A stretch of 64,000 nt of DNA from Pseudomonadota bacterium (GTDB taxonomy: Bacteria; Pseudomonadota; Gammaproteobacteria; Halothiobacillales; Halothiobacillaceae), in NCBI GenBank assembly GCA_021801265.1, contig JAJYYE010000001.1, forward strand, positions 620,001 through 684,000, written 5' to 3'. The translations under genes were made by a program, and so were the position numbers. Below are positions 58,233 through 64,000 of this stretch, piece by piece. Position 1 is the stretch's first letter. Each line of letters starts with the position of its first letter. The notes under the pieces were generated by a model, which was not told the DNA's origin, ran no database searches, and saw only the letters and a list, made by a program, of their open reading frames with translations.

Positions 58233-58685
58233 TTACAGCCCGCGATATCGCAGCACAATCTGATCCAGCTGATTGGCGAAATTTTGCCGATCGGTCTGGC
58301 TGAGCTTGGCGGGCCCACCGGTATTCACCCCCGTTTCGCGCAGCGTTTCCATAAAATTGCGCATCGATAGGCGGCTTTTAATCGAATCGGGCGTGTAGTG
58401 TTCGCCACGGGGGTTCAAGGCCAAACCGCCTTTTTCAATGACTTCTGCCGCCAGCGGAATATCTTGCGTCACCACCAGATCGCCCGCCGTCAGCCTTCGT
58501 ACAATTTCGTTATCGGCCACATCGAAGCCGCCCATGACTTGAATAAACCGAATATTGGCGGCACGCGGAATCGTGATCGGTTGATTCGCCACCAAGGTCA
58601 TCGACAAGCCTGTACGCGCGGCGGCGCGGAATAAAATTTCCTTGATCACGACGGGGCAGGCGTCGGCGTCGACCCAAATATGCAT
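58233..58685 (-). CDS. DUF188 family protein (YaiI/YqxD)
   Basis: This 150-residue protein has the DUF188 pattern: [53 protein letters not shown] and [15 protein letters not shown]. The acidic residues and fold suggest a PIN-like nuclease, but no activity has been assigned. The ATG at 58685 starts exactly at the conserved [11 protein letters not shown]. It is the last ordinary gene before the cassette region. Confidence 0.92.
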
Positions 58686-59149: not shown

Positions 59150-59239
59150 ATGAGCACCGTTTTATCGCCCCTCATTTCCGAGTTTGAAACAGTCGAACAG
59201 GAAGAAAGCGATACGAAGTGGCTACGCGCAAAATGTTAA
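59150..59239 (+). pseudogene. Truncated RelB/StbD-type antitoxin gene
   Basis: The 29 codons after a GGGAGG ribosome site code for MSTVLSPLISEFETVEQEES then DTKWLRAKC and a stop. This is the start of the RelB/StbD-like antitoxin family, which normally continues past WLRAKV for another 25 or more residues. The stop comes right at GTTAAAC (59235-59241), and an attC-like site begins 13 bases later. No toxin gene follows. I infer that a toxin-antitoxin cassette has been cut back to this stub, or that the last codons were replaced at a recombination point. Confidence 0.75.
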
Positions 59240-59251
59240 ACGCACCCACAC

Positions 59252-59387
59252 CAATAACCAGTGTTCATGCGGCAGATTGATGGCTTTGCGCTCTCGTCTA
59301 TCGGGTTTCTGGCGGCCAATTGGCCGCCAGAAACATGAATCTTGACCGGTCAAAATCCCTGATACGCAGAACAAACAACGGTTAAAC
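59252..59387 (+). repeat. attC-like recombination site 1 (136 bp, long form)
   Basis: Around the centre at 59319.5 everything is mirrored. The R'' position is CAATAAC (59252-59258) and the R' box is GTTAAAC (59381-59387, fits GTTRRRY). The inner arms are TGTTCATGCG (59262-59271) and CGCAGAACA (59365-59373), complementary except for one extra A at 59267, the extrahelical base typical of attC. The middle is a perfect 30-bp palindrome (59305-59334) that would form the variable stem. R'' is degenerate. Confidence 0.7.
59305..59334. repeat. Perfect 30-bp palindrome in the centre of attC-like site 1
   Basis: GTTTCTGGCGGCCAA is followed immediately by its own reverse complement, with no loop and the centre between A59319 and T59320. 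In single-stranded form it would make a 15-bp hairpin, which suits the folded bottom strand read by integron integrases. Confidence 0.95.
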
Positions 59388-59414
59388 GCCCCGCCCCGTT
59401 TAACATATCACCCC
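59374..59414 (+). repeat. Array-flanking repeat, left copy
   Basis: AACAACGGTTAAACGCCCC, then GTTTAACATATCACCCC, matches the right copy at 62384-62422 (AACAACAGTTAAAACAGCCCC-like, then GATTTAACATATCCCCC). The two are about 3 kb apart in the same orientation and bracket the four intact cassettes. The left copy includes the R' box of attC-like site 1. Confidence 0.7.
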
Positions 59415-59834
59415 ATCTCGGAAGCGGTCTTATTCGTTACAGTGACGAAATTGCTCATAAAAATTAAGCATCGATCCCTGCGAATGAGAACTCATGTGCC
59501 ACTTCTTCGCGACTTAGTAATATCATTGGGCTGCAGAATGTTGGCCTGCTTATACAGAACGGTTGGCCTACATATGCTTAAATAGCTCTGCATATTTAAT
59601 GCTAGACAGCCTGTCGGACTTAACACAGTCCTACTGCAGAAAAGTCGGATTTGGCTCCACTCCCCCCCCATTTTTCGTTAAATGAAACAACCATTCGCCT
59701 CAAAATCGTGAATGAGGCCTCAAACCGGGCTTTCCTTCGTAACGGATGGTTAAGTCCGACAGGCTGCTAGGCAAAGCTATGAATTCCGGTATCTCGAACA
59801 CAACATTCTTACCACTTCTTACAGGGGCTTAGCC
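59388..59834. other. Gene-free first part of cassette 1
   Basis: Between attC-like site 1 and the 107-codon gene lie about 450 bases without a recognisable gene. They contain the inverted-repeat element at 59603-59770 and a ribosome site AGGGG just before 59835. The promoter of the cassette gene may be here; no boxes were assigned. Confidence 0.6.
59603..59770. mobile_element. MITE-like element with 18-bp terminal inverted repeats
   Basis: CAGCCTGTCGGACTTAAC (59607-59624) and its exact reverse complement (59749-59766) enclose 124 bases with no reading frame. The word CTAG stands just outside both ends (59602-59605 and 59767-59770), as a target duplication might. A small inner hairpin (GCCTCA/TGAGGC) lies near the right end. 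I infer a non-autonomous relic of an insertion sequence; the parent family was not identified, and no transposase is in the window. Confidence 0.75.
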
Positions 59835-60158
59835 ATGCAAAAAATTGCAAACGTACTGCTTATTGAAAACTCTACAGCGGGCAATCCACCAAAATCATTT
59901 GTGGCTCAACGTATCGAAATCACACATGAAAATGATACGGTTGTGCAAGGTGCTGATGGGCATGTCAGCAGAGGTAGTCACCCATCCAAGGTTTTATGGG
60001 TTGAAGGAAAAGCGAATGATTTGAGTGGCATTACGAACGTGAAGATAACTGCTGCTGATGGCAGCGTTTTGCTTGATGGTGAATTAAACACATACTCTGG
60101 TGCGACTAGAAACACTGATGCAGGCGTTCAGTTCTTCGTTTTAAAAGCAGGCTGCTGA
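59835..60158 (+). CDS. Cassette gene 1: 107-aa protein of unknown function
   Basis: I do not recognise this protein. It is 107 residues, soluble, without signal peptide or TM helix. It has regular alternating strands (FVAQRIEITHENDTVV; VLWVEGKANDLSGITNVKI; GSVLLDGELNTYS) that suggest a beta-sandwich or jelly-roll-like fold. It ends in Gly-Cys. AGGGG lies 8 bases before the ATG. It is followed 48 bases later by an attC-like site, so it is the gene of an integron cassette. Lower GC content than the chromosome genes points to transfer. Confidence 0.8.
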   Translation: MQKIANVLLIENSTAGNPPKSFVAQRIEITHENDTVVQGADGHVSRGSHPSKVLWVEGKANDLSGITNVKITAADGSVLLDGELNTYSGATRNTDAGVQFFVLKAGC

Positions 60159-60206
60159 GTAACCATTAAAAACTGTGCGTAGCGAGTCTATGTTTATATC
60201 CAAGAA

Positions 60207-60275
60207 GCCTAACCTAACGTTCGAGCGGGACTGCCACGAAGCAGCCCGCATCAGCCCCTAAACTTAACGCTGGGC
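60207..60275 (+). repeat. attC-like recombination site 2 (end of cassette 1)
   Basis: It begins with an exact R'' box GCCTAAC (60207-60213). The inner arms GCGGGACTGC and GCAGCCCGC pair with one bulged base, around a short loop. The right end reads ACTTAAC then GCTGGGC (60269-60275), a degenerate R' box compared with GTTRRRY. The length, 69 bases, is typical of short attC sites. Confidence 0.7.
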
Positions 60276-60317
60276 TTACAATCGACGATTCCTCCAGCAA
60301 TCCGGAAGGCGAAAGGC

Positions 60318-61331
60318 ATGAAGATAAAAATACTCATGGTGCTGATCATAGTTATTGCGCTCATCGTCGTCGGTGCAGCAACGTTTGGCTACACTCGTAT
60401 CTATGCCGACGAGCAACGGATAGCTGCCGGCGCGCCGACCGATAGGTCGCCTAATATCGTGCTCGGCGCGCTTGATGGTGCTTATCTCTCCGAAGTTCAA
60501 TTGCTTGCGCGTGCCGGGAATGCGTCGGCACAAACTGTACTGGGCGCTAGATATCAATATGGCCTAGGTGTGCCAGCGAACGTCGTTCTTATGCTGCAAA
60601 ATTATCATGCCGCAACGGGCGCAGGGGATCCAGTAGCACAATTAATGCTAGGGAGACTTTACGACCCGTATCAAGATAATGGATCTATGACTGACTCAGC
60701 AGGCAACTTCGTAATCCAGTCGCCGTCCGGTGAAATATTGCTAACAGGGAGTAGCGCCGATGCTAAAAAATGGTATCAACAAGCCGCCTCCAAAGGAAAT
60801 GTTGCAGCGATGGTGATGCTTGGTGTGTTATTCGAGAAAGAGGAGCGCATGGCTGACGGTAACATCGCTACAGCGGCCAAATGGTTCCAGCGAGCAGCCG
60901 AACATGGAAATCTTTATGGTGAGCTCAATATTGGGGAAATGTATGTGGATGGTTACGGGGTAAATAAAGACAAAGACAAAGGTATCGCGTGGCTTGAGAA
61001 AGCTGCCGCGCAAGGTAGTGTTGATGCTGAATTCGACCTTGGCATGGCATATGAAGACGACCAGGCCATGCTTGAGGATCGTCAAAAGGCAGCGAAATGG
61101 TATTTACTTGCTGCGCAGCACGGTAATCCATTCGCACAGCGAAACATTGGGATGCTTTATGCCAAAGGCGATGGCGTGCCCCGCGACTACGTTGAAGCAT
61201 ATGTATGGTTGAATAAAGCGGCGGCCTATGGCGCCCCCTCCGCGGCGAATGCGCGCGACAGTCTGGAGACACTAATGACGCCGAGCCAGTTGGAGACGGC
61301 ACAGCGTAAGGCGTCATTGAAAGGCCAGTGA
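60318..61331 (+). CDS. Cassette gene 2: membrane-anchored Sel1-repeat protein
   Basis: This 337-residue protein has one N-terminal TM helix (IKILMVLIIVIALIVVGAATFGY) and about six Sel1-like repeats from residue 55 on, for example AAKWFQRAAEHGNLYGELNIG, GIAWLEKAAAQGSVDAEFDLG and AAKWYLLAAQHGNPFAQRNIG. Such repeats form solenoids for protein contacts. Most of the protein would be periplasmic or outside. At about 1 kb it is large for an integron cassette gene. It lies between attC-like sites 2 and 3. Partner and role are unknown. Confidence 0.88.
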   Translation: MKIKILMVLIIVIALIVVGAATFGYTRIYADEQRIAAGAPTDRSPNIVLGALDGAYLSEVQLLARAGNASAQTVLGARYQYGLGVPANVVLMLQNYHAATGAGDPVAQLMLGRLYDPYQDNGSMTDSAGNFVIQSPSGEILLTGSSADAKKWYQQAASKGNVAAMVMLGVLFEKEERMADGNIATAAKWFQRAAEHGNLYGELNIGEMYVDGYGVNKDKDKGIAWLEKAAAQGSVDAEFDLGMAYEDDQAMLEDRQKAAKWYLLAAQHGNPFAQRNIGMLYAKGDGVPRDYVEAYVWLNKAAAYGAPSAANARDSLETLMTPSQLETAQRKASLKGQ

Positions 61332-61345
61332 GTAAGGGTAAGTCG

Positions 61346-61422
61346 TGGTGGGCACGATTAAAATGTGGCCGAGGGTGATCCCAGCCATTCGGTCAACCGG
61401 ATGCCCACCCCAAGCGTTGAGC
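61346..61422 (+). repeat. attC-like recombination site 3 (end of cassette 2)
   Basis: The right end CAAGC then GTTGAGC (61416-61422) is an exact R' box. Inner arms GGTGGGCA and TGCCCACC are perfect complements, with a branched middle (TGGCCGA against TCGGTCA). The left R'' box is not clear, so the left boundary is approximate. It sits directly after the Sel1 gene and directly before the ribosome site of the next gene. Confidence 0.6.
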
Positions 61423-61436
61423 CAAGGAGTGTGATC

Positions 61437-61784
61437 TTGAAAAGTTACGAGCAGCGTGTCAAGGTAACGCTTCTACTGACAGGAATTTGCGCCATTGCCA
61501 GCCTTATGGTCATGCTAATTCTGCTTGCCTGCCATCTCAAGGGCTCGTCCCACACCTCAAAAATGTTCTTTACTTGGGGTGGCGCTGCGACAGCAATCTT
61601 TGCCCTAATTGCACAGAATCGCCACAGCCACTTCAAGGCTCTGCTAGTCCCCAACACATTCTCCACAGCAGAATTCAATGCGATTTTAACAAAATACTAC
61701 AAGTATCAATCTTTCGGCAGCTGGGTCTTTCTCGCGCTGGCAATCCTTGGTGTTGTTATTGGGGCGCTTGGGTCCCATTACTAA
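61437..61784 (+). CDS. Cassette gene 3: small three-helix membrane protein
   Basis: This protein of about 115 residues has three TM helices (VTLLLTGICAIASLMVMLIL, FFTWGGAATAIFALIAQ, and the C-terminal SWVFLALAILGVVIGALG) and a short cytoplasmic or periplasmic loop with HFKALLVPNTFSTAEFNAIL. I do not recognise the family. The start is taken as TTG 61437, with AAGGAG 7 bases upstream; GTG 61431 is too close to it. The gene begins 15 bases after an attC R' box, the usual tight placement in cassettes. Confidence 0.78.
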   Translation: MKSYEQRVKVTLLLTGICAIASLMVMLILLACHLKGSSHTSKMFFTWGGAATAIFALIAQNRHSHFKALLVPNTFSTAEFNAILTKYYKYQSFGSWVFLALAILGVVIGALGSHY

Positions 61785-61812
61785 ATAATTCAGGGGAGAG
61801 GGCTATGAGCTA

Positions 61813-61871
61813 GCCTGTGACAAGTCATTCGAGGCGGGCGGCTACGCCGCCGCTCAATTCAAGCGTTGAAC
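61813..61871 (+). repeat. attC-like recombination site 4 (end of cassette 3)
   Basis: The R' box is GTTGAAC (61865-61871). ATTCGAG on the left pairs with CTCAAT on the right except for one extra C, the extrahelical base, and GGGCGGC pairs with GCCGCC around a short loop. The left R'' region reads GCCTGTGAC, an altered form of GCCTAAC. Length 59 bases. Confidence 0.78.
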
Positions 61872-61911
61872 CAAATAATCCCGTCGAAGCCTCAGCATTA
61901 AAGGAACAGAT

Positions 61912-62307
61912 ATGAAGAATGTATTGAACTGGATTGGCATGGTGCTTATTGGCTACATTACCCTCGGAGCCATGCCTACATGGGCACAGCAAAGTCTAAC
62001 TGGGCCACAAAGTAATGCCGTGAGATCTGCGAAGCAGTACATTAGCCTTTCGGGCTTCTCACGGAATGGGCTTATCCAGCAACTCTCATCGGATGCCGGA
62101 GATGGCTACAAGATCACCGATTCTACTGTAGCAGTGGATAGCCTAAACATTGATTGGAACCAGCAGGCGGTGAGGTCTGCAAAGCAGTACCTAAGTATTT
62201 CTGGCTTTTCGTGTAAAGGTCTCATCGAGCAGCTTTCATCAAGTGCCGGCGATGGGTACACAAAAAGCCAAGCAACATACGGAGCACAGCAAGCAGGCGC
62301 TTGCTAG
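61912..62307 (+). CDS. Cassette gene 4: exported protein with two Ltp-family repeats
   Basis: This 131-residue protein has a signal peptide (hydrophobic 4-24, cleavage after TWA) and two copies of the Ltp domain, at about 36-80 and 86-128: AVRSAKQYISLSGFSRNGLI and AVRSAKQYLSISGFSCKGLI. Ltp domains were first seen in the surface lipoprotein of Streptococcus phage TP-J34, which blocks DNA entry of related phages. No lipobox Cys is present, so the mature protein is free or membrane-bound by other means. AAAGGA stands 6 bases before the ATG. It lies between attC-like sites 4 and 5. Confidence 0.85.
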   Translation: MKNVLNWIGMVLIGYITLGAMPTWAQQSLTGPQSNAVRSAKQYISLSGFSRNGLIQQLSSDAGDGYKITDSTVAVDSLNIDWNQQAVRSAKQYLSISGFSCKGLIEQLSSSAGDGYTKSQATYGAQQAGAC

Positions 62308-62323
62308 CTTCGGAGCAGCGAAT

Positions 62324-62387
62324 GCCTAACCAGTCGTTCAAGCCGACGTGGCATAAAGTGCCACGCAGCTTAACTTAGTCGTTAACA
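62324..62387 (+). repeat. attC recombination site 5 (end of cassette 4)
   Basis: This is the clearest of the sites. R'' is GCCTAAC (62324-62330). The L'' arm GTTCAAGC pairs with GCTTAAC except for one extra C, the textbook extrahelical base. CGTGGCA pairs with TGCCACG around a short TAAAG loop. The right end is GTTAACA (62381-62387), close to GTTRRRY. Length 64 bases. Confidence 0.88.
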
Positions 62388-62422
62388 ACAGTTAAAACAG
62401 CCCCGATTTAACATATCCCCCA
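62384..62422 (+). repeat. Array-flanking repeat, right copy
   Basis: AACAACAGTTAAAACAGCCCC, split here at its middle, continues as GATTTAACATATCCCCC and matches the left copy at 59374-59414 at most positions. It begins inside the R' end of attC site 5 and continues into the spacer before uvrA. Confidence 0.7.
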
Positions 62423-62594: not shown

Positions 62595-64000
62595 TTAAGC
62601 CGATTCGACCGGGTTTTTGGAGGGGTTGTGCAACAACTTCGCCAAATAGCGCCCTGTGTGTGACCCCGTTACCGTGGCCACGTGCTCGGGTGTGCCGGTC
62701 GCGATAATGTGCCCGCCGCCGCTGCCGCCTTCGGGGCCTAAATCGACAATCCAGTCGGCGGTTTTGATGACATCCAAATTATGCTCAATCACCACCACGG
62801 TATTGCCTTGATCGCGCAGGCGATAGATGACGGCAAGCAGTTGTTCGACATCGGCGAAATGCAGGCCGGTGGTCGGTTCATCCAGAATATAGAGCGTGTT
62901 GCCGGTATCGCGTTTCGAGAGTTCCCGCGCGAGTTTGACGCGTTGCGCCTCGCCGCCGGAAAGCGTGGTGGCGTTTTGCCCCAGTGTTAAATACCCCAGC
63001 CCCACATCAAGCAAGGTGGTGAGTTTGCGGTGCAGGGCGGGCACGGCAGTGAAAAACGGCGCGGCGTCTTCGATGGTCATGCCCAGCACGTCGCTGATGG
63101 TTTTGCCTTTGTAGCGAATGTCCAGCGTTTCGCGGTTGTAGCGCTGGCCGTGGCAGATATCGCAGGGCACGTACACATCGGGCAAAAAGTGCATTTCTAC
63201 CTTGATGACGCCATCGCCTTCGCAGGCTTCACAGCGACCGCCTTTGACGTTGAATGAGAACCGCCCCGGCGTATAGCCGCGTGATCGCGCCTCTTGAGTG
63301 CCCGCGAACAATTCGCGAATCGGCGTGAACAGCCCCGTATAGGTCGCCGGATTACTGCGCGGCGTGCGGCCAATCGGGGATTGGTCGATGTCGATGACCT
63401 TGTCGAGCAGGTTCAAATGCTCGATCCGCGCATGGGGTGCCGGTCGGGTGCTGGCGCCGTTCAAATCACGGGCGGCAATCAGATACAGCGTGTCGTTGAT
63501 GAGCGTTGATTTGCCCGAACCCGAAACGCCGGTGATGCAGGTGAGTAATCCCAAGGGAATTTCGAGCGTATCGCCCACCAAATTGTTGCCGCCTGCGCCG
63601 TAGAGTCTGAGCATGCGTTCAGGGTTTGGCGCCATGCGCGTGGGCACGGCAATTTTTTTCTTGCCCGATAAATAGGCGCCGGTGAGGGAGTTCGGGTTGG
63701 CGGCAATTTCAGCCGGGGTGCCTTGCGCGACGATGTACCCGCCGTGCACGCCGGCGCCGGGGCCAATATCCAGCACGAAATCGGCGGCGCGAATGGCGTC
63801 TTCGTCGTGCTCGACCACAATCACGGTGTTGCCCAGTTCACGCAGATGATTGAGCGTGCCGAGCAGCCGGTCGTTATCGCGTTGATGCAGACCGATGGAG
63901 GGTTCATCCAGAATGTAGGTGACGCCGACCAGGCCCGAACCAATTTGGCTGGCCAAGCGGATGCGCTGCGCCTCGCCGCCGGAGAGCGTTTCGGCAGAAC
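62595..64000 (-). CDS. uvrA: UvrABC system protein A, C-terminal half (partial)
   Basis: This is the C-terminal part of UvrA, the ATP-driven DNA-damage sensor of nucleotide excision repair; the frame runs off the window end. Seen in order are the signature [15 protein letters not shown] and Walker [15 protein letters not shown] of the first ATPase, the second Walker [12 protein letters not shown], the zinc-finger motif [11 protein letters not shown] with [13 protein letters not shown], the second signature [12 protein letters not shown] and Walker [15 protein letters not shown]. The first Walker A lies outside. It converges on the integron cassette region. Confidence 0.97.

Follow-up and report, generated by a model that had tools for sequence, protein, structure and literature searches.

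A probably decaying integron cassette array without a neighbouring integrase in a genome taken to be Halothiobacillus

Clusters of attC sites lacking integron integrases (CALINs) are defined in IntegronFinder as at least two attC sites without a nearby integrase gene (intI) (PMC9024848). In the IntegronFinder 2.0 survey, CALINs and complete integrons occur with similar frequency; the 2961 CALINs in complete genomes contain on average almost 6 attC sites and were called probable degraded integrons (PMC9024848). About half of the Xanthomonas genomes possess CALINs that are spatially separated from the intI locus (the ilvD integron) (PMC12444791). The array described here belongs to the same kind of element and is located in a 64-kb stretch of DNA (the window; C8:620001-684000) from the genome of a sulfur-oxidising bacterium (12 contigs, 2.66 Mb, 99.9% complete).

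The element is very probably a four-cassette integron array without a neighbouring integrase (a CALIN) that lies between a yaiI-like gene and uvrA and was built by an integron integrase, later cut off from it, and mutated. The host is taken to be a member of the genus Halothiobacillus because the nearest match to its integron integrase beyond its own assembly comes from a Halothiobacillus metagenome-assembled genome (MAG; 84%), an assignment that rests on this match rather than on a full phylogeny. Nine other genomes from the genus (G-numbered) served for comparison and form, together with the present genome, a sample of ten. In the library searched, a query for Halothiobacillus integrons returned no paper on the subject and one unrelated match.

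attC sites of the array

The attC sites were identified with a covariance model built from sites collected at 80 intI-bearing loci of other genomes, of which 51 were retained and aligned, none of them from the present genome. The training alignment has the architecture expected of attC sites, and 7 of the 12 pairs called by RNAalifold are backed by compensatory changes. When the model was run over both strands of the entire window with filters off, four matches stood out, all on the + strand and within a span of 2.2 kb (Table 1); the fifth-ranked match reached 10.1 bits. Rfam models yielded zero matches in the window at their gathering thresholds. An initial annotation, made from the sequence alone, had postulated five attC-like sites over about 3.2 kb, each of them placed at the 3' end of a small gene on the + strand, and had named three or more covariance-model matches at these positions as sufficient support. 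The strand and the position at the gene ends are borne out, the number and the extent are not; the 51-site model recovers three strong sites (A, C, and D; E 1.4e-4 or better) and a degenerate one (B).

The proposed fifth site near 59.2-59.4 kb is unsupported, as the model detects no attC in the interval 59150-60200 even with filters off, and this leftmost kilobase contains no cassettes. What it does contain is a truncated RelB-like antitoxin, a pair of hairpins, and a repeat of 160 bp. The antitoxin is represented by its first 29 amino acids (59150-59239; NF050103), which end abruptly and may be what is left of a toxin-antitoxin gene, or of a cassette, that was lost. The repeat (59607-59766), which resembles a miniature inverted-repeat transposable element, is located just upstream of cassette 1, has more than 10 copies in the genome, and carries 18-bp terminal inverted repeats (CAGCCTGTCGGACTTAAC); it is usually bordered by CTAG or a similar sequence.

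Each cassette consists of one intact small gene, with 16-48 bases between its stop codon and the attC site and 14-42 bases between attC and the next start; this textbook spacing counts in favour of a cassette array. The model alignments show pairing of both the R boxes and the inner arms in sites A, C, and D, together with one or more extrahelical bases and some non-standard outer pairs. Site B does not show the paired arms, as it is truncated and most of its right inner arm is lost; it is accepted as an attC site because its position is in register with the cassette genes on either side, its left half can still be recognised, and its GTTGAGC is intact. The nearest matches of site A are sites of the resident integron array of the same genome (see below) and two sites from outside, whereas site C is most similar to sites in a Halothiobacillus MAG (L169) and in the relative G002 and has an altered R'' (left R) box, with GAC replacing AAC. 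The bottom-strand hairpin of site D (z = -3.69) folds better than all 200 shuffled sequences.

Table 1. Features of the cassette array and its chromosomal neighbours (positions in the window)
Feature	Position	Strand	Characteristics
Left chromosomal neighbour	58236-58685	-	Shared by 7 of the 10 genomes of the genus sample, the present one among them
Cassette 1 gene	59835-60158	+	Intact open reading frame; 107 aa, orphan, predicted mostly beta strands
attC site A	60207-60275	+	39.9 bits, E 6.9e-7; R' core GCT, not GTT
Cassette 2 gene	60318-61331	+	337 aa, Sel1-repeat protein; PF08238, six repeats, E 3e-33
attC site B, degenerate	61379-61422	+	16.8 bits, E 0.12; R' GTTGAGC kept, R'' TCCCAGC
Cassette 3 gene	61437-61784	+	Open reading frame with TTG start; 115 aa, small membrane protein, orphan
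attC site C	61815-61871	+	29.7 bits, E 1.4e-4; R' GTTGAAC intact
Cassette 4 gene	61912-62307	+	131 aa, secreted two-repeat Ltp homologue; PF07553 x2, E 3.9e-29
attC site D, best preserved	62324-62387	+	40.8 bits, E 4.5e-7; R'' GCCTAAC, R' GTTAACA
Right chromosomal neighbour, uvrA (3' part; continues beyond the window)	62595-63956	-	88-92% identical in 6 congeners

Comparison with the nine congeners provides a second line of evidence. A DNA search with the entire 2.55-kb array produced three short matches only, all of which are attC sites: site A has a counterpart in G005 (92%), site C in G002 (86%), and site D in G006 (77%). The counterparts themselves score as attC sites (46 to 60 bits), and none of the cassette genes was found at the DNA level in any of these genomes. 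The counterpart of site A in G005 has different genes on both sides; it retains the GTT core that is replaced by GCT in the window, and the two copies differ also in an inner arm (A for C in the window). Recombination sites in common but with different cargo are what an integron leaves behind, and this evidence is independent of the covariance model.

Cassette genes

The four cassette genes are unrelated to each other, as initially annotated, although the designation as orphans fits only those of 107 and 115 aa; the remaining pair can be assigned to established families, Sel1 repeats and Lipoprotein_Ltp. The protein of cassette 1 has no match in Pfam and no relatives among 368 other Gammaproteobacteria; its sole relatives are encoded on two Rhizobium plasmids (40% identity). 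An AlphaFold2 model of this protein, computed without an alignment, was too weak (predicted local distance difference test score 49) and was not used. The gene of cassette 2 starts 42 bases past attC site A, and its product carries an N-terminal hydrophobic segment. In cassette 3, the TTG start is deduced from the Shine-Dalgarno sequence AAGGAG upstream, and the protein has no relatives on plasmids or in the 368 other Gammaproteobacteria.

The best lead of the array is cassette 4, which encodes a candidate Ltp-type superinfection-exclusion protein with a predicted role in blocking phage DNA injection. It matches phrog_15667, annotated as "superinfection exclusion" (E 1.5e-44), and is 70-82% identical to proteins encoded on plasmids of enterobacteria and Paraburkholderia; no attC sites were found beside the plasmid homologues in the four regions examined, so that they do not qualify as cassettes. 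The prototype of this family, Ltp of a Streptococcus phage, is a surface lipoprotein with the tape measure protein as reported target (PMC3952083). Cassette 4 has in common with Ltp-type proteins the two PF07553 repeats and a match to PHROG families named superinfection exclusion, but it differs from the prototype in its plain signal peptide without a lipobox (judged by eye), its Gram-negative host, and its location on a cassette. A superinfection-exclusion homologue of the Ltp type on an integron cassette is a simple candidate for phage resistance. PADLOC defence models gave no convincing match for any of the cassette proteins.

Resident integron and origin of the array

The window contains no intI gene, in agreement with the initial annotation. 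An intact intI (TIGR02249; 486 bits, cut-off 265) is located on the same contig at C8:539135-540073 (minus strand), 139 kb from the array, and none is nearer; the label "without integrase" is therefore true locally but false for the cell. The gene is followed by an attI-like GTTAGGT and about 19 attC sites that extend to C8:553.9 kb; together they form the resident sedentary chromosomal integron (C8:539-554 kb). Its attC sites have the same architecture as those of the window but are better preserved, with scores of 32.6-69.1 bits, most of them above 50 (window sites: 40.8, 39.9, 29.7, and 16.8). The array in the window does not qualify as a complete integron: it has no intI within 139 kb, and an attI-like site was not noticed beside it, although no separate attI model was run.

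The genome and its relatives contain several other traces of integrons. A 45-aa C-terminal fragment of intI and a solitary attC (38.3 bits) lie 0.5 kb apart at C9:148291-149024 (L030) and represent the remains of a second integron; two further attC sites are present at C6:60.1-62.2 kb. The resident array includes a DNA methyltransferase-like gene beside a possible restriction partner (positions 1684-2615 of L023, C8:540001-560000) and, further along, a TIR-domain-like protein; together, these genes, recognised by eye, are possible defence cassettes. The relatives G001 and G002 have many attC sites of about 96 nt, spaced about 272 bp apart, and these units are possibly gene-less cassettes that were multiplied many times. 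One such cassette of G001 (L247, 1563-1848) has no clear open reading frame and is 89% identical to a second copy in the same locus. In G002, an intI in pieces with an in-frame stop (G002:C1:93711-94402; L244) is located beside a long attC array, which is becoming integrase-less.

Across the genus, intI genes above the curated cut-off are present in six of the ten genomes and attC sites in nine, with intI at two alternative chromosomal places. In three congeners (G009, G006, and G002), the neighbour is the same as that of the resident intI, whereas in G007 and G005, intI adjoins a homologue of the gene that occupies C8:695.8-697.1 kb in the present genome, about 13 kb away from the array. Hence, integrons have occupied two places in the genus, and one of them is in the neighbourhood of the array, which has hosted an integron in relatives.

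The immediate surroundings of the array were compared using 1.5-kb flanks around each match. The left neighbour, which we take to be a YaiI/DUF188-like gene, and uvrA, of which a seventh congener has an additional fragment, enclose a gap of similar length in G007 that reads, by eye, as a mercury-resistance (mer) operon; in the other congeners, the two genes are not close together. No clear attC site was found within 1.5 kb of either gene in the congeners. A fixed gene order in all relatives, which would have spoken against a cassette array, is not observed: none of the cassette genes was found at the DNA level in the nine congeners, and the gap in G007 is occupied by the mer operon. The presence of at least two clustered attC sites on the same strand, the lack of a nearby intI, and a cassette content that varies among relatives support the designation as CALIN.

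The array is flanked by two similar sequences (CCCCGWTTTAACATATC; 59381-59413 and 62390-62421) that are not clearly dif-like. The right copy has a further 24-bp match at C9:51123-51146 and none in the nine congeners; a genus-wide repeat was considered and rejected, as the motif is missing from all of them. The sequence ACTTCGCATAATAGATATTATGTTAAAT at C7:139761 (minus strand) is very probably the chromosomal dif site; the flanking sequences were rejected as dif/Xer sites, since about 20 other places in the genome resemble it just as closely.

An integron integrase, which folds the attC bottom strand and recombines it, would have assembled the cassettes from a pool common to the genus; contact with the integrase would have been lost afterwards, and the sites would then have mutated. 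The GTT triplet is essential for cutting by integron integrases. The changes at the sites in question would be expected to stop recombination; sites A, with its GCT core, and B, with its lost arm, are probably dead, so that cassettes 1 and 2 are probably fixed, and the array is probably decaying. Sites C and D, which have kept GTT, could still recombine in trans via the resident IntI, site D best of all. It is extremely unlikely that the region is instead a fixed genomic island in which unrelated genes are separated by hairpins or terminators that arose by chance. The weakness of site B and the terminator-like hairpins of the region would fit such an island, although the hairpins are not clearly more numerous than expected by chance (8 found, 4.4 expected); the three strong matches on one strand and in register with gene ends, in 64 kb with a next-best score of 10.1 bits, speak against it, and the exact coincidence of the matching congener DNA with attC sites refutes it for A, C, and D. 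Arrival of the array as a block on a Xer-dependent element, bounded by the flanking sequences of about 30 bp with a dif-like half-site, is also very unlikely. The two flanks are identical at 17 of 20 bases and the right copy has its 24-bp match elsewhere in the genome, but no genes of Xer elements are present inside the array, the motif is missing from the congeners, and the agreement with the genome's own dif is limited to 15 of 22 arm bases, a level that about 20 places in the genome attain.

The resident IntI may instead have inserted the cassettes in trans, directly at a genomic attG-like site, which would make the array a satellite of a live integron. Insertion at attG sites has been described (PMC12444791), the same genome encodes an intact IntI, the cassettes have the same orientation as those of the resident array, and the right end of the array coincides with a G^TTAAC core. 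Nevertheless, this origin is the less probable one, since the four attC sites belong to several types and are weaker than most resident sites, unlike recent copies; moreover, no empty site could be defined, given that the mer operon fills the gap in the relative that has the same flanks. The array is tentatively regarded as the relic of a separate integron, an origin that becomes somewhat likelier with two integron places in the genus, one of them close to the array. Rather unlikely is a still working satellite, in which cassettes of the genus pool, including the Ltp-type phage-exclusion gene predicted to act in the periplasm, move via IntI in trans; in that case, the gap between the yaiI-like gene and uvrA would act as a secondary cassette depot.

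Several observations weigh against an array that was built as an integron and then degraded. Site B by itself lacks significance, and the lower bit scores are due not only to decay but in part to attC types that are rare in the training set; the copy of site A in G005, with its intact GTT, scores merely 46 bits. In addition, the left boundary is eroded and no remnant of attI was noticed, which makes a relic and an insertion in trans indistinguishable.

Relationship to known CALINs

Given that CALINs are widespread, the element itself is unsurprising. It is real, of the ordinary CALIN kind, and probably decaying. The genus Halothiobacillus looks rich in integrons and may be tractable for asking how CALINs arise. 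The positions of CALINs in Xanthomonas are fairly conserved among strains; by contrast, no congener in the Halothiobacillus sample has attC sites at the locus between the yaiI-like gene and uvrA. With its four sites, one of them badly damaged, the array shows no principled difference from the CALINs recorded by IntegronFinder.
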